From NCBI RefSeq assembly GCF_023206395.1, contig NZ_CP066150.1:310001-374000 (forward strand): DNA of 64,000 nt, in the 5' to 3' direction. Under the pieces are notes generated by a model. It was not told the origin of the DNA, did not search any database, and was given only the letters and a program-made list of their open reading frames with translations. This DNA is from Vibrio sp. ED004 (GTDB taxonomy: Bacteria; Pseudomonadota; Gammaproteobacteria; Enterobacterales; Vibrionaceae). Shown one piece after another: positions 46,052 through 56,777 of this stretch (position 1 is its first letter; each line of letters opens with the position of its first letter). The position numbers and the translations under genes are program-made.

Positions 46052-46210
46052 CTTGATCCTGCTACTCCCCATTTCTCTGGTTATATCAGCCTGATTTGTC
46101 TTTTCTTTATCCTTTTCTTCTTCCCACTTTTTCAAATTTACTACCTCTTATTTATTCAATATCTAGCCACTTATTTCAGAAAGCATTGACGATTCTCTGA
46201 CAAAATAACA

Positions 46211-46228
46211 CTAGACCGACCGGTTTGT
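46211..46228. promoter_or_regulatory. TetR-type operator before the aldehyde dehydrogenase operon
   Basis: CTAGACCGACCGGTTTGT is identical over 18 bp to the site at 50987-51004 and related to one at 56760-56777. The core TAGACCGACCGGT resembles the NemR box (TAGAC..GGTCTA). It lies 40 bp before the ATG at 46269, overlapping the expected promoter, so repression is likely. Confidence 0.8.
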
Positions 46229-46268
46229 TGTGTATTATTGTGTGCATCTCTTAACCACGAGGTGATGT

Positions 46269-47684
46269 ATGAAACATGAATTGACGGCTACACAAATGAC
46301 AGCGACGTTGAAGAGTATGCAGGAAGCTTTTGCAGATGATCCGATGCCCACTGTGCCGGTGAGAATAGAACAGTTGCTTGCGCTGAAATCTGCTCTTATC
46401 GATTACACAGACCGTTTGTGTGTCGCGGTAAGTGAGGACTATGGTCACCGCAGCCGACAAGATACTTTGATGGCCGACATACTCCCTTGCTTAGGTAATA
46501 TTGATCACACCATCGAGTGTTTGCCACATTGGTCGACATCTTCTATTCGCCACTCAGGCCCTTTGCTTTCAACCTCTCGCGTTGAAGTGGTTTATCAGCC
46601 TAAAGGCGTTGTGGGGATCATTGCCCCGTGGAACTTCCCTATCATGTTGTCGGTTGGCCCGCTCATTTCAGCTTTGGCGGCGGGTAATCGCGCCATGATC
46701 AAGATGAGTGAATTTACGCCAGCAACCAATGACGTTTTAAGACAGTTATTGGATGAAGTCTTTAATTCCAACGAGGTGTGCTTGGTTGAGGGTGAGGTGG
46801 AAATTGCTGCTGCGTTTTCTGCGCTGCCGTTTGATCATCTTCTGTTTACGGGTTCAACCCAAGTGGGGCGTCAAGTGATGAAATCAGCGGCTGACACGTT
46901 AACTCCCGTCACTCTTGAACTTGGCGGCAAGTCGCCTGTTATCGTGGCAGAAGACATGCCGATCGATATTGCAGTCGAGCGAATCATTTACGGAAAAAGC
47001 CTCAATAACGGCCAAGTATGCGTTGCGCCTGACTACGTATTGCTGCCTGAAGATAAGCTCGAAGGTTTTATTAAGGAATATAAAAAACAGTACCAACTGC
47101 TGTTTGATGAAGGGGTCTATTCCGAGAATTTGACGTCTCTAATCAACCCTCGCCAATGCGACCGCATCGTGGGTTTGTTGAATGAAGAACAACAAGCGGG
47201 AACGCGAACCGTGGCCTGCCATGACGACGCGATGAACTTAGATTGTCAACGACTGGTGACGCATCTGATTGTAGAACCAAGCTTGTCATCCAAGGTGATG
47301 AACGAAGAGATTTTCGGCCCGCTATTACCGTTGATTACGTATCTCAATATCGAAGAGGCGTTCCAAGTCATCAATAGCAAACCGAGGCCTTTGGCGCTGT
47401 ATCTGATGAGCTTTGATTTGAGTTTACAGTCTCAGGTTAAGCACCAAGTTCATTCCGGTGGAATGTGTATCAATGACTGTGTTTTTCACTTGGCGGTTGA
47501 TGATGCGCCGTTTGGTGGCATTGGTGAATCAGGTCAGGGCAATTATCACGGTAAAGAAGGGTTTATCACTTTCTCCCATGCCAAAACAGTTTTAGAAACG
47601 GGCTTAGATCATCGAGTTAAGCATCTGTTTGCAAAAGAGGACAACGAATTAAAGACAGCTGTGATGAGCATGCTAGGCAAGTAA
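46269..47684 (+). CDS. Aldehyde dehydrogenase, coniferyl-aldehyde type
   Basis: 471 residues of the ALDH superfamily, in the group annotated as coniferyl aldehyde dehydrogenases (short, membrane-interacting class 3-like). VYQPKGVVGIIAPWNFPIMLSVGPLISALAAGN, LFTGSTQVGRQVM, catalytic Glu in TLELGGKSPVIV and catalytic Cys in KSLNNGQVCVAPDYVL. The C-terminus (GLDHRVKHLFAKEDNELKTAVMSMLGK) is basic/amphipathic. It oxidises a hydrophobic or aromatic aldehyde. It is followed by a small membrane protein and sits under the shared TetR-type operator. Confidence 0.88.
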   Translation: MKHELTATQMTATLKSMQEAFADDPMPTVPVRIEQLLALKSALIDYTDRLCVAVSEDYGHRSRQDTLMADILPCLGNIDHTIECLPHWSTSSIRHSGPLLSTSRVEVVYQPKGVVGIIAPWNFPIMLSVGPLISALAAGNRAMIKMSEFTPATNDVLRQLLDEVFNSNEVCLVEGEVEIAAAFSALPFDHLLFTGSTQVGRQVMKSAADTLTPVTLELGGKSPVIVAEDMPIDIAVERIIYGKSLNNGQVCVAPDYVLLPEDKLEGFIKEYKKQYQLLFDEGVYSENLTSLINPRQCDRIVGLLNEEQQAGTRTVACHDDAMNLDCQRLVTHLIVEPSLSSKVMNEEIFGPLLPLITYLNIEEAFQVINSKPRPLALYLMSFDLSLQSQVKHQVHSGGMCINDCVFHLAVDDAPFGGIGESGQGNYHGKEGFITFSHAKTVLETGLDHRVKHLFAKEDNELKTAVMSMLGK

Positions 47685-47736
47685 ATCACACCTGACATTC
47701 AGCTATTTATTTTAGAAACTATTCAAGAGGTTATTT

Positions 47737-48180
47737 ATGTTGGAACGTTTTTTTGAAAGAACCATGAAGTCGTATTTGATGATCACCGGATTCTTAACCG
47801 CCACTGCTTTTTCCACCTTCTTGGCGCCGGATTGGAGTATGCAGACCCTGTTTTCATACAACGATACGATGATGGAAAACAAAGAGTATCTGTTGGGTAC
47901 TTATCAGCACTGGGGTGTGATGGTTGGCTGTATTGGTGTGTTGCTGATGTTTTCGGCCAAGTACAAATCGCTGCGTACTTCGACCATGATTTACAGCGCA
48001 TTTGAGAAGTCGATGTTTGTTGGCATCTTCTTATACAACGTCTGCATTAATGACTATGAGTGGTTCTATGGTTGGAGTGGTGTGTTTGCGCTCGATGCGT
48101 TTGTGACCGTCTACTCTTTGGTTTATCTCTACTACTATCTCAACCGAGATAAAACAAAGGTACCCGCTCACTTGCGTTAA
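47737..48180 (+). CDS. Small four-helix membrane protein, unknown function
   Basis: 147 residues with about four hydrophobic segments (near 14-30, 58-72, 85-103, 112-132). DWSMQTLFSYNDTMMENKEYLLGTYQHWGVMVGCIGVLLMF and FEKSMFVGIFLYNV are features, but no named family was recognised. It starts 52 bp after the aldehyde dehydrogenase stop and ends just before a terminator, making a two-gene operon. A role beside the dehydrogenase in the membrane is inferred only from position. Confidence 0.75.
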   Translation: MLERFFERTMKSYLMITGFLTATAFSTFLAPDWSMQTLFSYNDTMMENKEYLLGTYQHWGVMVGCIGVLLMFSAKYKSLRTSTMIYSAFEKSMFVGIFLYNVCINDYEWFYGWSGVFALDAFVTVYSLVYLYYYLNRDKTKVPAHLR

Positions 48181-48215
48181 CCTCTGTCGTTCAGCTCGTT
48201 GAATCTAATATTCCT

Positions 48216-48238
48216 AAGCCCGCATTTGCGGGCTTTTT
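48216..48238 (+). terminator. Terminator used as group II intron insertion target
   Basis: AAGCCCGC-ATTT-GCGGGC-TTTTT ends the aldehyde dehydrogenase operon. The intron begins one base after its T tract. Confidence 0.93.
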
Positions 48239-48962
48239 CGTTTGCCCAGCGAAGCTGGCAAACCCGTTAGGTTGAAAGAAACCTGAATCACCCCGACTGA
48301 GGGGAAGATAATCCGAATCGCAAGGGCGTTGCTGGCTAACGGCAGGGTCTGAAGGAAGCGATAGGAAGTTAACAGTACACAACGCAAGTAAACCTGCTTC
48401 GGCAATATAGGTGGGTAAGCGTCCGAAATAGCGCGAAGCCCTATACTCAGTCAGACCTATGCTGTGCTTGAGGTGGCATTGTTAACAGGGAGCCAGTGCA
48501 GTAACTGGGAAGCCTGACACCACAGCCAAAAGTCTGGAAGCACAAACTCGAAGCGAAAGCTAAGAGCTGTGTTGGTGCGAGGTGGCAGATGAATCCGTAG
48601 TAGTGAGTAAGGCTAAGCCGAGAAGCCCAGTAATGGTGTGGAGGAGAAAACTTAGCTGACCATCAGCATCAAGTCTGATGGAGCACTGAAATGCCAAAAG
48701 CACTCAGTGCTGCGAAGGGAGGAAGTACACTTTAAGTCTGTGATGAACAGATGTTTTTTTTTCAGTGATACCCAAACCGAATCGCTATCGGGGTATTGAT
48801 TGTGGAAGCAAGATACTGAGCTAAGAAACCGTATAGGGGAGTAACTCTGACACACTTCAGTAAATTGCCATTGAGCTAGAAGGCTGAATAGCAGAGAGAA
48901 ATAACACCCACACTGGACATGAAACACTTGTCCCCACACAGCACACAACCCAAGGAGAGAAA

Positions 48963-50247
48963 GTGCGAGTTTATTACAGTTTATATGGTCATCTGCTCAA
49001 CAAAGAGAGGCTGTATAAAGGGTTTAAAAAGGTAAAGAAAGCGAAAGGCGCGGCTGGAATAGATGAGCAGAGCCTGAGCGACTACGCCGAAAATCTGAGT
49101 GATAACCTCGATCAACTCCTCTCTGAACTCAAAACCAAGCAATACAAACCTCAGCCAGTCAAACGAGTAGAGATACCCAAAGAAGACGGAGGGGTACGAT
49201 TGCTTGGGATCCCAACCGTTAGGGACAGAGTTGTCCAACAAGCACTCAATGATATCCTCACCCCCATCTTCGAAGAGCAATTTCACCCATCAAGTTTTGG
49301 GTATAGACCGAATCGAAGTTGTCACGATGCAATCAACAAATCCACGATGTTTATCCGCCGATACGGATTACAGCACGTCGTAGATATGGACTTGTCGAAG
49401 TGCTTTGACAAACTCGACCATGAGTTGATCCTCAAGAGCATCAGAAGGCGAGTCACAGATAGCAGCGTGTTAGAGCTGATAAAACAGTTTCTGAAAAGTG
49501 GCGTGATGATAGACGGTAGTTGGCAGGAGACAGAGCTAGGAAGTCCACAAGGTGGTGTTATCAGTCCTTTGATTGCCAATATCTACCTTGATGCGTTCGA
49601 TCAGGAAATGCGAAAGCGTGACCATAGGCTCGTTCGTTATGCGGATGACATACTCATCTTCTGTCGTAGCAAGGCAGGAGCAGAGAATGCCCTTGCACAA
49701 GCGACGAAGATCCTAGAAGGAGAGCTTAAACTCACAGTGAATCAGACGAAATCACATATAGCGCACAGCCGTGATGGCGTGAAGTTCTTAGGTGTAGAAA
49801 TCGGGAGTCAATTTACCCGCATTCAAACTAAGAAACTGAAAGGGTTCAAAAGTAAGTTAAAGCGACTGACAAAGCGAGGGGTGCGGTAAGCCACTTGAGC
49901 AAGTCATAAAAGCTTTAAACCCAGTGTTAAGAGGGTTCAGTCAATACTTCAGGATCACCAATAACAGCAGAGAGTTCTCAAGGTTAGCAGGGTGGCTACG
50001 AAGAAGACTTCGTAGTATCCAGTTGAAACTTTGGAAGAAGCCTCAACGGTTACACCGAAGGTTAAAACAGTTAGGGTATAAGCCGCCGTTCCAACATATC
50101 TCAATGACAAGTTGGGTCAGTGCAGCGAGTCCCCTATCAAGCTATGCGATGCCAAATCAATGGTTTAATGACCAAGGATTGGTAAATCTTGGAACAATAA
50201 GGACAGGGCATGTGTTCAGCCAATATGCTGAATGGAAGTGTGCATGA
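48963..50247 (+). pseudogene. ltrA: Intron-encoded reverse transcriptase/maturase, frameshifted
   Basis: From GTG 48963 (AAGGAG upstream) the frame gives 308 residues: reverse-transcriptase blocks KAKGAAGIDEQSL, VEIPKEDGGVRLLGIPTVRDRVVQQAL, SSFGYRPNRSCHDAI, DMDLSKCFDKLDHELIL, GSPQGGVISPLIANIYLD and the catalytic RYADDILIF near residues 224-232. It stops at TAA 49887-49889. The maturase X domain continues in the next frame from 49888 (KPLEQVIKALNPVLRGFSQYF, AGWLRRRLRSIQLKLWK). Removing one T at 49887 would restore a ~428-residue protein. The X domain is needed for splicing, so the protein is probably inactive unless frameshifted. No HNH domain. Confidence 0.9.
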
Positions 50248-50316
50248 GCCGTATACGAGGTCCGTACGTACGGTTCTGTGAGAGGGATGAGGCGGTAACG
50301 CCTCACCCTACTCGAT
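50246..50316 (+). ncRNA. Group II intron catalytic domains V and VI
   Basis: Domain V stem GAGCCGTA/TACGGTTC with inner TACG/CGTA and a CG bulge; domain VI TGAGGCG-GTAA-CGCCTCA extended by GGG/CCC and GAG/CTC with a bulged branch-point A at 50310. It overlaps the maturase stop codon by 2 bp. Confidence 0.85.
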
Positions 50317-50329
50317 GTTTTCAGCCCTA

Positions 50330-50924
50330 AACCACCTACTTCAGTAGGTGGTTATCATTCAGTTTGGCTTTGCCTGTAGTTCTACCCATGTTAAATGCTC
50401 CCTTGATTTTTAGCGAAGTCAAAGAGGACAAATAACATGAGCAGATATAATCAAGCTTCCCACGTATTTTGGAGATGTCAATATCACATAGTGTGGACAC
50501 CAAAGTATCGATTTAGGATTTTGAAAAACAATGTAGGTAAAGAAGTTTATCGATGTATAAACGTTTACTGTAATCAACTTGGATGTGAAGTCGTTGAATT
50601 AAACGTTCAAGTTGACCACGTGCACTTGGTAGTAAAAGTTCCGCCTAAGTTATCGATATCCAAGTTGATGGGCGTATTGAAAGGCAAAATAGCTTTAAAA
50701 CTCTTTAGTAAATTTCCATATTTAAGGAGAAACAAACTCTGGGGTAACCACTTTTGGCAAAGGGGCTATTTTGTCGATAGCGTAGGGGTTAATGAAGAAA
50801 TCATTCGACGCTATGTAAGACATCAAGAGAAAAAAGAGCGCGTGGAGCAGCAGCAATTGGCGTTGGACTAAACAAAGGCCCCCTTTTAGGGGGCTCACAT
50901 AAAGCCACCTTCTTTAGAAGGTGG
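50330..50924 (+). mobile_element. IS200-type insertion sequence (IS200/IS605 family)
   Basis: Left-end hairpin AACCACCTAC-TTCA-GTAGGTGGTT (50330-50353) and right-end hairpin CCACCTTC-TTTA-GAAGGTGG (50905-50924) flank a single Y1 transposase gene. There is no tnpB. A GCCCCC/GGGGGC terminator (50878-50894) follows the transposase. No terminal inverted repeats or target duplication are expected for this family. True tips lie some bases outside the hairpins, so the left end is within about 13 bp of the intron's 3' end. Confidence 0.85.
50437..50871 (+). CDS. tnpA: IS200/IS605-family Y1 transposase TnpA
   Basis: 144 residues, the normal length. The HUH metal motif is H61-V-H63 in QVDHVHLVVKVPP, and the catalytic Tyr is Y126 in RRYVRHQEK (Y-x-x-x-Q). 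The N-terminal HVFWRCQYHIVWTPKYRFRIL is conserved in the family. The gene looks intact. It catalyses single-strand excision and insertion guided by the terminal hairpins. Confidence 0.93.
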   Translation: MSRYNQASHVFWRCQYHIVWTPKYRFRILKNNVGKEVYRCINVYCNQLGCEVVELNVQVDHVHLVVKVPPKLSISKLMGVLKGKIALKLFSKFPYLRRNKLWGNHFWQRGYFVDSVGVNEEIIRRYVRHQEKKERVEQQQLALD

Positions 50925-50986
50925 TAATTTACTTTAGACAAATGATCCTCAATGATCTTAATTGACATATCTTTGACATTAACACT

Positions 50987-51004
50987 CTAGACCGACCGGT
51001 TTGT
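50987..51004. promoter_or_regulatory. TetR-type operator before the iron alcohol dehydrogenase
   Basis: CTAGACCGACCGGTTTGT, an exact 18-bp copy of the site at 46211-46228, 43 bp before the ATG at 51048. Both sites follow AACA(CT) and precede a TTGT/TTGG-rich stretch, so the whole promoter context is conserved. Confidence 0.8.
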
Positions 51005-51047
51005 GTTGGTTATTGTTTAATCATCAAACATAAACGAGGTAAACACC

Positions 51048-52253
51048 ATGACTACCAATAACTTTAACTTTCAACTGAAAACCATTGTTCACGCTCAAGA
51101 GAACGGCATCGAAAATATCCCTTCTCTGTTTGCTCGCTTAGGTGCAAAAAGAGTCGTGCTTTTTTCTGACAAAGGTTTGGAGTCTTTGGGCTTTGTTGAG
51201 CAATTCTCAGAGTTGTTTGCAAACCAGGCGATGAATCAAGAAGCAAATCATCAAGCGACTAAGCTCGTTGGTGTGTACACCGATATTGCGCCAGACGCGA
51301 CTTGCGACAACATCAACGCTGCGATTGAGTTTGCTAATAACTTGAATGCAGACGCTATTTTGTCTGTCGGTGGAGGCAGTGTGATTGATGCTTCTAAGGG
51401 CGTGAAATACGCACTTCATAAGCAGATTGATGATATCCGTACCGTGATTGCTGGCGGTGGCTTTATGGAAGTGTGGCCAAACAATGAAGACATTCGAGTG
51501 CCTCATATTGCCGTACCAACAACGGCTGGTACTGGCGCTGAAGCTTCTCCGATTGCGGTTTTTTACAACGAGCATGAAAACATCAAGGCAAGTTTAGTGG
51601 TGTCTGGTTTAGAGGCTGACATTGCGATTCTTGATCCGACTGTCACCACCAAATTGCCTGCGCACCTGACTCGCTCAACCGCGATGGATGCATTAACGCA
51701 CGCCGTTGAGGCCATTGTTTCTCCAATGAGCAATGCCTTTACCGACGCTTACGGCATTCAAGCTGCAAAACTGATTGTTGAAAACTTACCCGTGGCACTT
51801 GAGGAGCCTGAAAACCTAACCGCACGCGGAAATCTACTTCAGGCAAGCACCATGGCGATTTCTGCATTTTATTCATCGCTAGGTGGCATCCCTATCCATA
51901 ACTGCGCCCATGCCTTTGGTGCGATTAGCCATATCCCGCATGGTGATGCCAACACGGTACTGATGCCAGTTGTGATTGAAGCCCTGCCGGAATTCTATAT
52001 GCCGAACGTAATTAAATTAGCTCAAGCATTCTCGCTAGAGAGCACAGGAACGGACGAGATGATTTACCAACGAGTTTTGGATTTCTTACGCAACTTCCAA
52101 ACCCAAGTAGGTGCGATGAAGCGTTTCAGTAGCTGGGAATTTGATGATCAAGAGAAGCGCAATATTGCTCAAGCGATTGAGAAAGATATCTGCTTCCAGT
52201 TCTACCCAATCTCAAAACAAACGATTGAACAGATTATAGAAAAATCAATTTAG
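51048..52253 (+). CDS. Iron-containing alcohol dehydrogenase
   Basis: 401 residues of the group III Fe-ADH family. GGGSVIDASKGVKYAL (NAD-binding), VPTTAGTGAEASPIAVF, DPTVTTKLPAHLTRSTAMDALTHAVEAIVSPMSN and the metal-ligand helix HNCAHAFGAISHIPHGDANTVLMP with its two His. It interconverts an alcohol and an aldehyde with NAD(P). The operator is shared with the aldehyde dehydrogenase at 46269, so the two probably act in sequence. It may lead a unit that includes the sulfatase genes. Confidence 0.9.
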   Translation: MTTNNFNFQLKTIVHAQENGIENIPSLFARLGAKRVVLFSDKGLESLGFVEQFSELFANQAMNQEANHQATKLVGVYTDIAPDATCDNINAAIEFANNLNADAILSVGGGSVIDASKGVKYALHKQIDDIRTVIAGGGFMEVWPNNEDIRVPHIAVPTTAGTGAEASPIAVFYNEHENIKASLVVSGLEADIAILDPTVTTKLPAHLTRSTAMDALTHAVEAIVSPMSNAFTDAYGIQAAKLIVENLPVALEEPENLTARGNLLQASTMAISAFYSSLGGIPIHNCAHAFGAISHIPHGDANTVLMPVVIEALPEFYMPNVIKLAQAFSLESTGTDEMIYQRVLDFLRNFQTQVGAMKRFSSWEFDDQEKRNIAQAIEKDICFQFYPISKQTIEQIIEKSI

Positions 52254-52300
52254 TCGTCTGATTAAGCATCCAAAAACTCACTGTAAATCGAGGACTAATT

Positions 52301-52366
52301 ATGAAGATTGAAAACGTATTGCTATCGAGCTTGTGCATCATCGCGCCGTTTCTACTTTTCACCTAA
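52301..52366 (+). CDS. Tiny hydrophobic ORF, 21 residues
   Basis: ATG 52301 with AGGA 8 bp upstream; MKIENVLLSSLCIIAPFLLF then Thr and stop. It is a charged N-terminus followed by a single short hydrophobic segment, as in small membrane peptides. No homologue was recognised. It lies 47 bp after the alcohol dehydrogenase and 47 bp before the Sel1 gene. It might be translated, a leader peptide, or chance. Confidence 0.35.
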   Translation: MKIENVLLSSLCIIAPFLLFT

Positions 52367-52413
52367 TTCACTCGACAGGGACGTTGTGACCTTTATTCCT
52401 GAGGAGGAAATAA

Positions 52414-52830
52414 ATGTTCAATAAACGTTTAACTACCGTGATTCTGACTGGTGTTGTGACGGTTCTGCTTTTTGCCAAGGCAAGCGTTGGCAGCGAAAGC
52501 TCTGTGGCCTTATCTGAACAGCACCGAGATGTCGTTCAGGTGTTGGATGAAGCCTATGAAGGACACTCTGAAGCACAACTTGCTCTCGCTTATCGGTATT
52601 TGAGCGGTGATGGTGTTGAGCAGAATGACGAGAAAGCGGCGGAGTGGTTTGAAACCGCAGCCAGCGCCGGTAGCCCTGAAGCTCAAACACAGCTTGGCCT
52701 AATGTACTTCTCTGGAAGTGGCGTTCAGGTCAGCCAAGCGGACGCTGTCACTTGGATCGGTTTGGCAGCCGCTCAAGATTATGACCCTGCGCTCGACTTA
52801 TTACATTGGATGTCCCAAGCCGCGCACTAA
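52414..52830 (+). CDS. Exported Sel1-repeat protein
   Basis: 138 residues with an N-terminal signal segment (RLTTVILTGVVTVLLFAKASVGS) and two Sel1/TPR-like repeats: AQLALAYRYLSGDGVEQNDEKAAEWFETAASAG and AQTQLGLMYFSGSGVQVSQADAVTWIGLAAAQ. GAGGAGG precedes the ATG. Sel1 repeats bind partner proteins. It sits 63 bp before the sulfatase gene and may help a periplasmic complex, but no partner can be shown. Confidence 0.8.
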   Translation: MFNKRLTTVILTGVVTVLLFAKASVGSESSVALSEQHRDVVQVLDEAYEGHSEAQLALAYRYLSGDGVEQNDEKAAEWFETAASAGSPEAQTQLGLMYFSGSGVQVSQADAVTWIGLAAAQDYDPALDLLHWMSQAAH

Positions 52831-52893
52831 CTCAGATTAGTCACAGAAAAAGTTAATCATAGAAAAATTATTCACAGCTATTGGAGACGTCTT

Positions 52894-54639
52894 ATGCAGA
52901 CATTCAAGAAATCCCTATTATTCACCGCGATGGCCGCTGCAAGTAGCGCCGCCCTCGCTGCCGAATCAGATAAGCCGAACATCGTTGTTATTGTCGGTGA
53001 TGATGTTGGCTTTGCTGATACCCAGCCTTATGGTTCAGAAGTCGAAACACCCAACTTGATGGCGCTTGCTGAAGAGGGGGTTAAATTCACCAACTTTCAT
53101 GCATCACCGACCTCATCAGTTACTCGCTCAATGATGTTAACTGGAGCGAACAGCCACGAGGTTGGGCTAGGTACCTTTGATTATGCTGTCTATCCGGGCG
53201 CGATTGGTAAGCCGGGCTATGAAGGTTACCTGACCAAGAAGGGCGTAACAGTAGCTACGTTGCTCAAAGAAAATGGCTACAACACGTATTTATCGGGTAA
53301 ATGGCATTTAGGTCATGATGATGGATTTTTACCAGACGATCGCGGCTTTTCCGAAAGTTACGGCATTTTAGCGGGTGGTTCGAATCACTTTAACCGCGAC
53401 ATGATGTTCCCAGCCAAAAACGCGGCTACCGCTGAAGCGCTTCAAAAAGGCGACATTCCCGGCGTTGAAGTTGAACCTACCTACAGAAACGGTGAAGTGG
53501 TTGAGGACAAATACAAAGGCGAGTACTCAGACCAAGTCTACACCAACGAACTCATCAAGATGATCGATGGTAAGAAAGACGACGGTAAGCCTTTCTTCGC
53601 TTATCTTCCTTTCACTGCCATACACCTTCCGCTGCAAGCGCCAGAATCAGCGTATCAAGGTAAAGTCGACTACTACGTCGAGCATGGTTGGGATTCGATT
53701 CGTGAAGACCGCTTTGACCGCATGAAGGAGATGGGCGTTATTCCTAAAGATGCCGATATCTCAAGTCGTAATGCACTAAGTCGCCCTTGGGACTCTTTGT
53801 CTGATAAAGAACAAGAGTGGTATGGCAAGAAGATGGCGGTGGCAATGGGCATGATGGAGATGCAAGACCAACAAGTCGGTCAGGTTGTCGATTACCTAAA
53901 AGAGATTGGGGAATACGACAATACTTACATCATGTATCTGGCAGACAACGGGCCTGAAGCCGCGGACATTACCGGTGAAAACATCAGTGATTTGATTCGC
54001 ACATGGACGGCGCATCACTTTGACAACTCGACGGAAAACCTAGGTAAAGCCAACTCCAGCGTGTCATTAGGCCCTGAGTGGGCAAGTGCATCAACCGGTG
54101 GTTTGTCTTGGTATAAAGCGTACACGGCTGAAGGCGGTATTCGTGTGCCGTTTATTGTTAAGCCTGCGAAAGCACTCTTAGAGGGCGATCAAGCGCTGCA
54201 ACCTGGTACTCAAACTGATGATTTGTCACAAGTAAAAGACATCGCAGCCACCATTCTTGAAATCGCCGATGTAGAGCACCCAGGAACAGAGTATCAAGGT
54301 CGTGAAGTGGCCCCGATGAGTGGTGTGAGCTTGCTGCCTTACTTTAAGGGCGAAACGGCAGAGGTGCACAGTGCCGATAATGCGATTCCATTTGAGTTGT
54401 TCGGCAGCGGCATTTTGCTCAAAGGGGATTACAAGATCATCCGAATCTCTACAGGCATGGGCGGTGACAGTGAATGGCACCTGTACAACACCAAACAGGA
54501 TCCGGCTGAGCAGCATGACTTGAGAAATCAAATGCCAGACTTGTTCCTTGAGATGGTTGCTGAGTATCAAGAGTACGAAAAAGCGCAAAATATCGTCCCA
54601 GTGGATGAAGCGTGGAACCCGTTTGAGAACGTGAAATAG
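52894..54639 (+). CDS. Exported Ser-type sulfatase (arylsulfatase family)
   Basis: 581 residues: signal peptide (SLLFTAMAAASSAALAAES), metal-ligand NIVVIVGDDVGFAD near 29-42, the formylglycine-type motif PTSSVTRSMMLTG with Ser74-x-Val-x-Arg78, SGKWHLGHDDGFLPDDRGF, and the later YLADNGPEA Asp-Asn. The nucleophile is Ser, the substrate of anaerobic maturases, and a radical-SAM maturase follows 119 bp on. Val replaces the usual Pro/Ala in C/S-x-P-x-R. It hydrolyses a sulfate ester in the periplasm; the substrate is unknown. An aliphatic or aromatic alcohol sulfate would suit the nearby dehydrogenases. Confidence 0.88.
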   Translation: MQTFKKSLLFTAMAAASSAALAAESDKPNIVVIVGDDVGFADTQPYGSEVETPNLMALAEEGVKFTNFHASPTSSVTRSMMLTGANSHEVGLGTFDYAVYPGAIGKPGYEGYLTKKGVTVATLLKENGYNTYLSGKWHLGHDDGFLPDDRGFSESYGILAGGSNHFNRDMMFPAKNAATAEALQKGDIPGVEVEPTYRNGEVVEDKYKGEYSDQVYTNELIKMIDGKKDDGKPFFAYLPFTAIHLPLQAPESAYQGKVDYYVEHGWDSIREDRFDRMKEMGVIPKDADISSRNALSRPWDSLSDKEQEWYGKKMAVAMGMMEMQDQQVGQVVDYLKEIGEYDNTYIMYLADNGPEAADITGENISDLIRTWTAHHFDNSTENLGKANSSVSLGPEWASASTGGLSWYKAYTAEGGIRVPFIVKPAKALLEGDQALQPGTQTDDLSQVKDIAATILEIADVEHPGTEYQGREVAPMSGVSLLPYFKGETAEVHSADNAIPFELFGSGILLKGDYKIIRISTGMGGDSEWHLYNTKQDPAEQHDLRNQMPDLFLEMVAEYQEYEKAQNIVPVDEAWNPFENVK

Positions 54640-54653
54640 AGGAAACAAACTTC

Positions 54654-54689
54654 TCGGCCAACCTAATACCATCAGGCTTGGTTGGCCGA
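54654..54689 (+). other. Stem-loop between sulfatase and maturase
   Basis: TCGGCCAACC pairs perfectly with GGTTGGCCGA over a 16-nt loop; no T run. It probably lowers or processes read-through so that less maturase than sulfatase is made. Confidence 0.55.
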
Positions 54690-54758
54690 TGAACACCGTG
54701 TAAAGGAATTACGAATTGTTTTGGCTAATACAATATCTTTTACATCGAGGAATTCTTC

Positions 54759-56006
54759 ATGACGACCTTATCACTATCAAATCTGAGTTCGGTTCCGCAA
54801 TTTAATGGCAAGGCGCACAGTAAGCTTCAAGCGTTGGCTAAACCCATTGGTGCCGTGTGCAATATCAGTTGTACCTACTGTTATTACTTAGAGAAACAGC
54901 AGTTGCTTGAATACCCAAAAGGATCTCAATACGTGATGGATGAAGCGCTGTTAGAGCTGTATATCAAGCAGTATATTGAGGGGCAGAACACGCCGGAAAT
55001 CATATTTTCTTGGCATGGCGGAGAACCAACTCTGCTCGGCATTGAGTACTTTGAAAGGGTCGTGGCATTTCAGAAAAAATACTGCCCTAGCCACAGCAAG
55101 ATCAGCAACGACCTTCAAACCAATGGCACTTTGTTGAATGATGATTGGTGTGAGTTCTTCAAGAACAATGACTTTATCATCGGTGTGAGCATTGATGGCC
55201 CCGAGCATCTACATAATCATTACCGTACAAATCGCGCAGGCAAAGGCACTTTTTCCCAAACCATGCGCGGAATCTGCTATCTAAAAAAACATAACGTTGA
55301 GTTTGCGACCTTAACTTGTGTGAACGATGTGACGGGCAAATACCCGTTAGAGGTTTATCGTTTTCTGCGAGATGAAGTAGGTTCAAAGCAGCTGCAGTTC
55401 ATCCCTGTGGTGGATAAGCGCGAGGCTCACTCCAACAATAAATGGTTGAGCAACCAACAAGCGATCATTCCTGTTTTTGGTGAAGTTGAGCCTTGGAGCG
55501 TGGGTTCTACGCAATGGGGTGAGTTTCTTTCGACGGTTTTTGACGAGTGGTTCGAACGCGATTTTGGCCGAGTGCTTGTGCCTTACTTTGAAAATTTCGT
55601 CGGTGTGTGGATGGGAAGAGACAGTACCATGTGCACCTTGAGTGAAATCTGCGGCAAAGGGTTAGCGGTTGAACCTAATGGCGATGTGTACTCATGCGAC
55701 CATTATGTCTTTCCTGAGTTTCAGTTGGGCAATCTTCATGATAAGCCACTATCGAAGCTAGCATTTTCACCCGCTCAGCAAACTTTTGGATTCGCGAAGC
55801 AAAAGTCACTACCTAAACAGTGCCAAACTTGTGAGTTTAAATTTGCTTGTCATGGTGAGTGCCCCAAGAACCGAATTATCAACAGTCGTGATGGTGAGGC
55901 AGGGCTAAATTACCTATGTGAAGGATGGCTCACATTCTTTCAACATATCGACCCGGTGCTCAATGCTTTGCTAAAAGCCAATAACATAGCGCCGCGCATG
56001 GGATAA
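54759..56006 (+). CDS. Anaerobic sulfatase-maturating enzyme, radical SAM
   Basis: 415 residues. The radical-SAM cluster motif is CNISCTYCYYLEK (CxxxCxxC near 37-44), followed by SWHGGEPTLLG and ISNDLQTNGTLL. The C-terminal SPASM domain has Cys ligands in CTLSEICGKGLAVEPNGDVYSCDHYVFPEFQLGN and CQTCEFKFACHGECPKNR. It converts the active-site Ser (or Cys) of sulfatases to formylglycine in the cytoplasm before export. Its target is surely the Ser-type sulfatase just upstream. Confidence 0.93.
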   Translation: MTTLSLSNLSSVPQFNGKAHSKLQALAKPIGAVCNISCTYCYYLEKQQLLEYPKGSQYVMDEALLELYIKQYIEGQNTPEIIFSWHGGEPTLLGIEYFERVVAFQKKYCPSHSKISNDLQTNGTLLNDDWCEFFKNNDFIIGVSIDGPEHLHNHYRTNRAGKGTFSQTMRGICYLKKHNVEFATLTCVNDVTGKYPLEVYRFLRDEVGSKQLQFIPVVDKREAHSNNKWLSNQQAIIPVFGEVEPWSVGSTQWGEFLSTVFDEWFERDFGRVLVPYFENFVGVWMGRDSTMCTLSEICGKGLAVEPNGDVYSCDHYVFPEFQLGNLHDKPLSKLAFSPAQQTFGFAKQKSLPKQCQTCEFKFACHGECPKNRIINSRDGEAGLNYLCEGWLTFFQHIDPVLNALLKANNIAPRMG

Positions 56007-56084
56007 TCGAATCGATCACGTGATAAGTAAAAGCTTAGGTAGAAAAAGAATAAGTCTAGGTAGAAAACGTACAAGCCTGAAAAG

Positions 56085-56112
56085 CAAAAGGCTCGCTATA
56101 TAAAGCGAGCCT
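56085..56112. terminator. Terminator between the maturase and tetR genes
   Basis: AGGCTCGCT / AGCGAGCCT stem, A-rich on the left and therefore T-rich for the minus strand; it can serve both convergent genes. Confidence 0.85.
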
Positions 56113-56131
56113 CTTAGCGTGCAGGAGTTGG

Positions 56132-56710
56132 TTAATCTTTTGAACTCATCGCGAGCAATGTCTCTTCCATGGCATTGTTCAGAATCGAACGGTTGCGCTG
56201 CATCGCTGCCATGAGCGTTGAGCCTAGCCATAAGCCATAAAGCGTGCGAGATAGCGTTTCAGGTTCTGCGATATTGAAATCACCCGCTTCATTGCCTTCT
56301 TCGAATAGCTTAGCCATACGCAGAATGATCTTTTCCGCACCTTCTGCCATGGTTGATTGCAACGGATTAGCAGACCCAGATACTTCACCAGCTAGCTTGA
56401 CCACAAGACATTGGATATTGAAGTCTTCAGTCAATTTCGATGAACACCAGAATTCGAAGTACGTTTTAACACGGTCACGACGAGATAGAGTCTCATCACT
56501 CAAAAAGTCATCAAGCTTAATTAGGTGATCATCAAAGTAGTTGGCTAGAAGGATCTCGCCAAAGTGCTCTTTGGATTTGAAGTAGTGGTAAAAAGAACCT
56601 TTGGTCCCTTCTGCTTGGTTGATGATTTTCATCAGACCAACGCCAGCAAATCCGTGTTCATTAATAAGGCTAAACCCTGCATCGAGCATAGCTTGTCGCA
56701 TGTCTTTCAT
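56132..56710 (-). CDS. TetR-family regulator (NemR/AcuR-like), candidate master of the regulon
   Basis: 192 residues. N-terminal HTH: MRQAMLDAGFSLINEHGFAGVGLMKIINQAEGTKGSFYHYFKSKEHFGEILL, with KGSFYHYFKSKE typical of the NemR/AcuR group. The ligand domain contains a single Cys in FNIQCLVVKLAGEVSG, in a place where NemR-type proteins carry a reactive Cys (CLTVKLSAEV in NemR), plus a second Cys in FWCSSK. That hints at sensing an electrophile or aldehyde. A degenerate copy of the regulon operator lies 50 bp upstream of its start. Confidence 0.85.
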   Translation of the reverse strand: MKDMRQAMLDAGFSLINEHGFAGVGLMKIINQAEGTKGSFYHYFKSKEHFGEILLANYFDDHLIKLDDFLSDETLSRRDRVKTYFEFWCSSKLTEDFNIQCLVVKLAGEVSGSANPLQSTMAEGAEKIILRMAKLFEEGNEAGDFNIAEPETLSRTLYGLWLGSTLMAAMQRNRSILNNAMEETLLAMSSKD

Positions 56711-56759
56711 TGGTCTTACTCTTTATGCCGAGAATGATGATTAGTGTAGCGAGATGCAT

Positions 56760-56777
56760 ACCAACCGTCCAGTCTAG
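56760..56777. promoter_or_regulatory. Degenerate TetR operator before its own gene
   Basis: Read on the minus strand CTAGACTGGACGGTTGGT matches CTAGACCGACCGGTTTGT at 14 of 18 positions and sits 50 bp before the tetR start, suiting autoregulation. Confidence 0.6.

Follow-up and report, generated by a model that had tools for sequence, protein, structure and literature searches.

A conserved Vibrio gene cluster that looks like a TetR regulon with NemR-type operators and new targets

In a window of 64,000 nucleotides (the whole stretch of DNA from the marine Vibrio sp. ED004 that was analysed), a palindrome-like box precedes an aldehyde dehydrogenase (ALDH) gene, an iron-containing alcohol dehydrogenase (Fe-ADH) gene and a tetR gene. 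Probably the TetR protein belongs to the NemR/CurR group, owns the three sites and acts as a local repressor of ALDH, ADH and its own gene. The cluster looks like a conserved regulon whose operator is of the NemR type and whose targets are new. Rather than a system of a new kind, it seems to be a new cousin of the NemR circuit known from E. coli. The sites, their conservation, their co-inheritance with TetR, the operator type and the linkage to a sulfatase gene were established computationally. In the circuit that we propose, a TetR dimer would bind the 16-bp site before ALDH, Fe-ADH and its own gene and would hold back a short oxidation route from alcohol to aldehyde to acid. The sulfatase and maturase genes would be repressed too, probably via read-through from the ADH promoter. 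An aldehyde of the pathway or another electrophile, or else a bound alcohol or aryl ligand, may release TetR, perhaps through Cys101, and its release would allow the enzymes and, by a proposed autoregulation, more repressor to be made.

Operators and genes in the window

The features of the cluster are as follows.
46211-46228, + strand: operator 1, 16-bp core TAGACCGACCGGTTTG, 40 bp 5' of the ALDH start codon
46269-47684, + strand: ALDH, class-3-like, 471 aa (PF00171)
47737-48180, + strand: 147-aa protein 3' of ALDH, no Pfam or NCBIfam match at E 0.001
48216-48235, + strand: terminator-like hairpin ending the ALDH unit (terminator scan)
48246-50931 (limits approximate), + strand: inserted mobile DNA, group II intron and IS200/IS605 transposase (comparison with relatives)
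50437-50871: IS200/IS605-family transposase
50987-51004, + strand: operator 2, 43 bp 5' of the Fe-ADH start codon
51048-52253, + strand: Fe-ADH, 401 aa (PF00465/PF25137)
52414-52830, + strand: Sel1-repeat protein (PF08238), position kept in many relatives
52894-54639, + strand: AtsA-like sulfatase (PF00884)
54759-56006, + strand: anaerobic-type sulfatase maturase, radical SAM (TIGR03942, 487 bits, cut-off 349)
56132-56710, - strand: NemR/CurR-like TetR repressor, 192 aa (PF00440 and PF16925)
56760-56777, - strand: operator 3, CTAGACTGGACGGTTGGT, 49 bp 5' of the TetR start codon

Box 1 is thus followed by ALDH and the 147-aa gene, and box 2 by the Fe-ADH, Sel1, sulfatase and maturase genes, all on one strand; box 3 precedes TetR on the opposite strand. 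Operators 1 and 2 are exact copies of one 18-mer, CTAGACCGACCGGTTTGT, as an earlier note on this DNA had claimed. Allowing up to three mismatches, this 18-mer occurs twice in the window against 0.02 expected; in the 5.83-Mb genome the only exact copies are operators 1 and 2, and the single 3-mismatch copy lies within the coding sequence of a 351-aa flavin/2Fe-2S reductase. The same note placed the two sites at the same distance from their genes. The gaps are near-equal and not identical (40 and 43 bp), and with 49 bp at the third site equal spacing holds only approximately. The reported relative of the 18-mer before the tetR gene was recovered as operator 3, which shares 14 of 18 bases with CTAGACCGACCGGTTTGT. 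A looser 14-bp palindrome pattern was not enriched in the window (7 matches, 6 expected), and the pattern TAGACNNNNCGGTNNGT gave 6 matches genome-wide, the three operators and three others, with 3 in the backwards control. Since such looser patterns are near chance, operator 3 rests on where it lies and on how relatives have kept it, and not on rarity.

The earlier note had looked to a genome scan for more sites; the scan was run, and among the matches examined it recognised no regulon member beyond the three. Relaxed to one mismatch, the pattern gave 28 matches in the own genome and 61 in the control, and further members there were dropped for lack of an excess over the control. Fifteen further matches were inspected in 3-kb loci, where ORFs extending past the locus ends are invisible: 8 lie within an ORF and 7 outside, and none of the 15, read by eye, precedes an ADH, ALDH or sulfatase gene. 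Of the other 12 one-mismatch matches, the three examined fall within the reductase gene, within an EAL response-regulator gene and at an AMP-binding ORF, near its end. A search for sigma-70-type promoters at the boxes found none. Directly 5' of the ALDH and ADH boxes (46180-46210 and 50960-50986) stands a pair of TTGAC-like repeats, with about 11 bp between them, that is mostly conserved across the aligned relatives; the pair may belong to a promoter or be the site of a second regulator.

The DNA between the ALDH unit and operator 2 is largely mobile. Compared with one relative (G005), the insert adds about 2.7 kb. It includes Rfam group II intron domains (48329-48499 and 50244-50316), and the intron and IS200/IS605 proteins were not found in the other 47 loci. 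The insert sits between the hairpin of the ALDH unit and the promoter region of ADH; operator 2 has kept about 55 bp on its upstream side. The hairpin and its T-tract recur in five of the seven relatives in the ADH alignment, and in part in a sixth, in a scan that overall gave no more terminator-like sites than shuffled sequences did. The intron protein (48963-50247) looks interrupted: its reverse-transcriptase frame stops at 49889, and an ORF at 49924-50247 is in another frame. The description of the regulon as split by mobile elements is only partly correct: the group II intron and the element of the IS200 type went in between two units that were each boxed beforehand, and the regulon seems not to have been cut apart by them. 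ALDH and ADH each carry a box, with no insert, in 6 of the 7 first relatives having both genes, and the distance from TetR to ADH is made up of the sulfatase and maturase genes, which are cluster members. Because of the separate boxes, the insert appears to have lengthened the cluster without splitting a single transcription unit. The identity of operators 1 and 2 near mobile DNA could also mean that the boxes are products of a recent promoter duplication or of a mobile element and not functional operators. We regard this as extremely improbable: boxes persist before ALDH and ADH where the rest of the promoter has diverged, and they are also found in relatives that have no intron or IS200 element there.

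The box and its genes across the genus

For the genus comparison, the box was taken as a 17-mer with one base free and a TetR ortholog as a match at E 1e-45 or better. The box was present in 44 and the TetR ortholog in 46 of 227 same-genus genomes, all 44 fall within the 46, and the box was missing from 181 of 181 genomes without the ortholog, counts that overstate the evidence because the relatives are not independent. The claim of a single TetR regulon with three operators is supported by this co-occurrence and by the conservation in relatives. The two remaining genomes (G110 and G152) have the ortholog without a near-exact box, yet both carry a variant box. Among the box matches listed, a single one is further than about 10.5 kb from TetR: it is in G141, at a distance of about 520 kb, and precedes an iron ADH. 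Outside the genus, the box was missing from all 362 genomes sampled from the order, and the 3.6 kb fetched around a 69%-identical TetR of Aliivibrio sp. 1S175 holds only a degraded one. One Vibrio genome has TetR fragments of the window type (G036:C1:368195-368657; identities of 69, 53 and 59%, and two stops in one of the fragments) and no exact box was found in it, a pattern that fits loss of TetR and box together. G110 carries the TetR locus twice, on separate contigs (L159 and L160), both with 302-aa ORFs of one family that, read by eye, is transposase-like.

The first eight relatives compared all have the cluster, in full or reduced, with the box or a variant before ALDH in 8/8, before TetR in 8/8, and before ADH in 6 of the 7 with an ADH ortholog; in the seventh (G035), ADH follows ALDH by about 30 bp. 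Of 74 loci, 28 have the pattern TAGACNNNNCGGTNNGT; all 28 are from this cluster, and the remaining 46 lack it. Gene order and neighbours vary among the relatives despite shared ancestry. A literature search covering titles and abstract openings of the papers listed found no published study on this TetR clade or regulon; an operator and likely targets are now given to a clade present in 46 of the 227 genomes.

We next asked which genes carry the box in the fetched stretches, calling a box at a weight-matrix score of at least 18 bits from -110 to 260 bp upstream and excluding genes that start within 60 bp of a locus end. The matrix was derived from sites of these same loci, and some sites are counted on both strands; the reversed-sequence control gave 1 match against 130 in 554,634 bp. 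Boxes precede 39/39 ALDH orthologs and 27/33 ADH orthologs, and the six ADH genes that lack a box stand about 25-37 bp behind a boxed ALDH (alignment edges). They precede 39 of the 47 TetR genes, the other 8 having no box of at least 18 bits. All eight SDR-like genes are boxed, as are five of five non-orthologous Fe-ADHs (about 30% identical; one is the distant G141 gene) and the one other ALDH (34% identical). Boxes are less frequent before maturases (6/37), DUF4345 genes (2/16), F11 family genes (2/16) and chalcone-isomerase-like genes (1/6), and no gene has its own box in the 147-aa family (0/39), the Sel1 family (0/29) or the MarR neighbours (0/17). The counts for the pentapeptide-repeat gene (21/21), F18 (7/7) and F15 (3/8) cannot be assigned, since their intergenic region is common with a boxed gene. 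The fetched stretches of the 46 genomes contain ALDH in 40, Fe-ADH in 38 and the maturase in 37. Because ADH, and once ALDH, can be replaced by a non-orthologous enzyme that is again boxed, the regulated target appears to be the alcohol-to-aldehyde-to-acid chemistry.

Operator type and the TetR protein

The operator consensus, TAGACCG-RY-CGGTYTR, is 16 bp long and palindrome-like, with TAGAC/GTCTA half-sites and a 6-bp spacer. A palindrome 15 bp before E. coli nemR, TAGACCGACTGGTCTA, which we take to be the NemR operator, shares 13 of 16 bases with the window core and has the same 6-bp spacer, so the likeness of the core to the NemR box noticed earlier was borne out. No operator text was found in the part of PMC3739934 that was available.

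The genome also encodes a CurR-like paralog (C2:981573) that is 35% identical to the window TetR and nearly identical in the recognition-helix region, so it could be the owner of the three sites. This is very unlikely. At the paralog locus (G000:C2:981409-982172), sites with perfect arms and a 5-bp spacer precede the paralog and curA, the neighbouring gene that passes the curcumin-reductase (CurA) model, and a protein standing beside 5-bp-spacer sites is an unlikely owner of 6-bp-spacer sites. The box is also missing from those genomes of the genus in which the best TetR match reaches only about 32-43% identity. A third 5-bp-spacer site occurs in the genome at C1:2213540, with 2 per strand in the backwards control. 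The distinction extends to a paralog-type set of 72 TetR relatives of 35-43% identity, taken from the best 80 among the matches listed: the 6-bp-spacer site is present in 46/48 regulon loci vs 3/72 paralog-type loci, and the exact 5-bp-spacer site in 0/48 vs 68/72. Paralog-type promoters mostly carry TAGACGACYGGTCTA, with a 5-bp spacer; both arms are perfect in 67 of 71 (0.05 expected from shuffles), and among those with at most one mismatch the spacer is 5 bp in 68 of 69. The two proteins offer a clean test case of paralogous repressors that use the same half-site and may stay apart through spacer length.

The window TetR has a PF00440 DNA-binding domain (39.7 bits, cut-off 24) and aligns to NemR (4yze) at E 1.7e-28. 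On a midpoint-rooted tree with one NemR sequence, it belongs to a Vibrio/Aliivibrio clade of 55 tips (support 1.0) that excludes NemR and the paralogs. Its Cys101 aligns with the redox Cys106 of NemR, and the Cys that had been pointed out at the NemR-like CLxVKL position is invariant (47/47). Lys175 of NemR is its proposed partner for a sulfenamide bond; the aligned residue is Ala169 in 47/47, and the own paralog has Lys. In the accessible part of PMC8748444, a NemR-based sensor with the Lys-to-Ala change still answers NaOCl, and it is disputed whether Lys175 is needed at all. The window TetR may thus still use Cys chemistry, and the missing Lys175 was no longer counted as decisive against a sensing Cys. 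Because the CurR-like paralog has this Cys too, the residue is by itself no pointer to aldehydes. Sensing of an aldehyde or another electrophile by the window TetR is plausible.

Sulfatase linkage and related systems

Of the 46 TetR-ortholog loci, 44 contain at least part of a sulfatase gene (absent in G125 and G203, a fragment only in G032). We concluded from this that the sulfatase and maturase genes between ADH and TetR belong to the unit, a point that the earlier note had missed; the ADH/ALDH pair is thereby tied to a sulfatase and maturase whose substrate can be sought. From -110 to 260 bp upstream, no box was found directly before the sulfatases (0/37 AtsA-like, 0/16 second-type). Since the sulfatases have no box of their own and the maturase only rarely has one, their control in the window would depend on an assumed read-through. 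The stretch from ADH to the sulfatase showed no terminator-like site, in a scan that overall did no better than shuffles, so read-through is possible, as we infer. Matches to the sulfatase, ADH or maturase are broken into pieces in three loci (L161, L172 and L173), which suggests decay of the cluster.

The same features could be read as a NemR-type stress circuit, in which Cys101 would react with quinones, aldehydes or reactive chlorine, ADH and ALDH would detoxify general aldehydes, and the sulfatase would be a passenger. The NemR-type operator and the invariant Cys agree with it, as do three loci (L081, L181 and L165) that hold ALDH and the box without a full AtsA-like sulfatase. We consider it possible but on balance doubtful: the window TetR is not a NemR ortholog on the tree, the classified neighbours are not nemA or gloA, and the frequency of the sulfatase argues against a passenger. 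Three other loci (L167, L171 and L176) keep the box, TetR and a sulfatase with no ALDH or ADH in the fetched stretch; there the box lies a few hundred bp 5' of a second, Cys-type sulfatase, and in L171, the only one of the three loci for which three frames were read, box and sulfatase are separated by what looks by eye like a small protein resembling the DUF4345 family. The change of Lys175 to Ala also speaks against the stress circuit, although the NaOCl response of the Lys-to-Ala sensor, from the part of PMC8748444 available, weakens this point.

Going further than the local repressor of ALDH, ADH and tetR that we prefer, the cluster might be a vibrio pathway devoted to one sulfated alcohol, lipophilic or aromatic, e.g., the sulfate of an aryl alcohol, a steroid or a fish bile alcohol. 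The sulfatase would be exported and would free the alcohol, the Fe-ADH and the steroid-aldehyde-dehydrogenase-like ALDH would oxidise it, the NemR-type Cys repressor without Lys175 would sense the aldehyde made in the pathway, and the one extra bp of spacer would keep the CurR-like paralog apart. We offer this only tentatively and think it rather unlikely; export of the sulfatase is predicted from its N-terminus, read by eye. The best solved relative of the ALDH is the steroid aldehyde dehydrogenase 9nxl (336 bits). Steroid specificity was rejected, since the other ALDH of the same genome (C1:191744) scores 322 bits to 9nxl and the match is not specific.

Compared with AtsA-type arylsulfatases, the window pair is alike in that a sulfatase related to the arylsulfatase 1hdh (its best solved relative, 397 bits) adjoins a TIGR03942 maturase. 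The usual sulfatase motif has Pro where the window sulfatase, with SSVTR, has Val. It is unlike them in this Val, in the Ser at the presumed nucleophile position and in its link to an ALDH/ADH regulon; SSVTR is the same in the AtsA-like sulfatases of relatives with a visible N-terminal part. CurR, a TetR repressor of Pseudomonas (NCBIfam NF058643), is the best NCBIfam match of the window TetR and has the same half-sites, but the score of 162.7 bits is under the curated cut-off of 300, the regulon operators have a 6-bp and not a 5-bp spacer, and curA adjoins the other paralog. The AcuR model is further off (93.3 bits vs a curated cut-off of 247). With NemR of the E. coli nemRA-gloA operon, the window TetR shares the TetR family, the Cys in CLxVKL and a TAGACC..GGTCTA palindrome with a 6-bp spacer before its own gene. 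It differs from NemR in its separate clade, in the Ala that replaces Lys175 and in its boxes, which precede ALDH, Fe-ADH and sulfatase-linked genes and not nemA or gloA.
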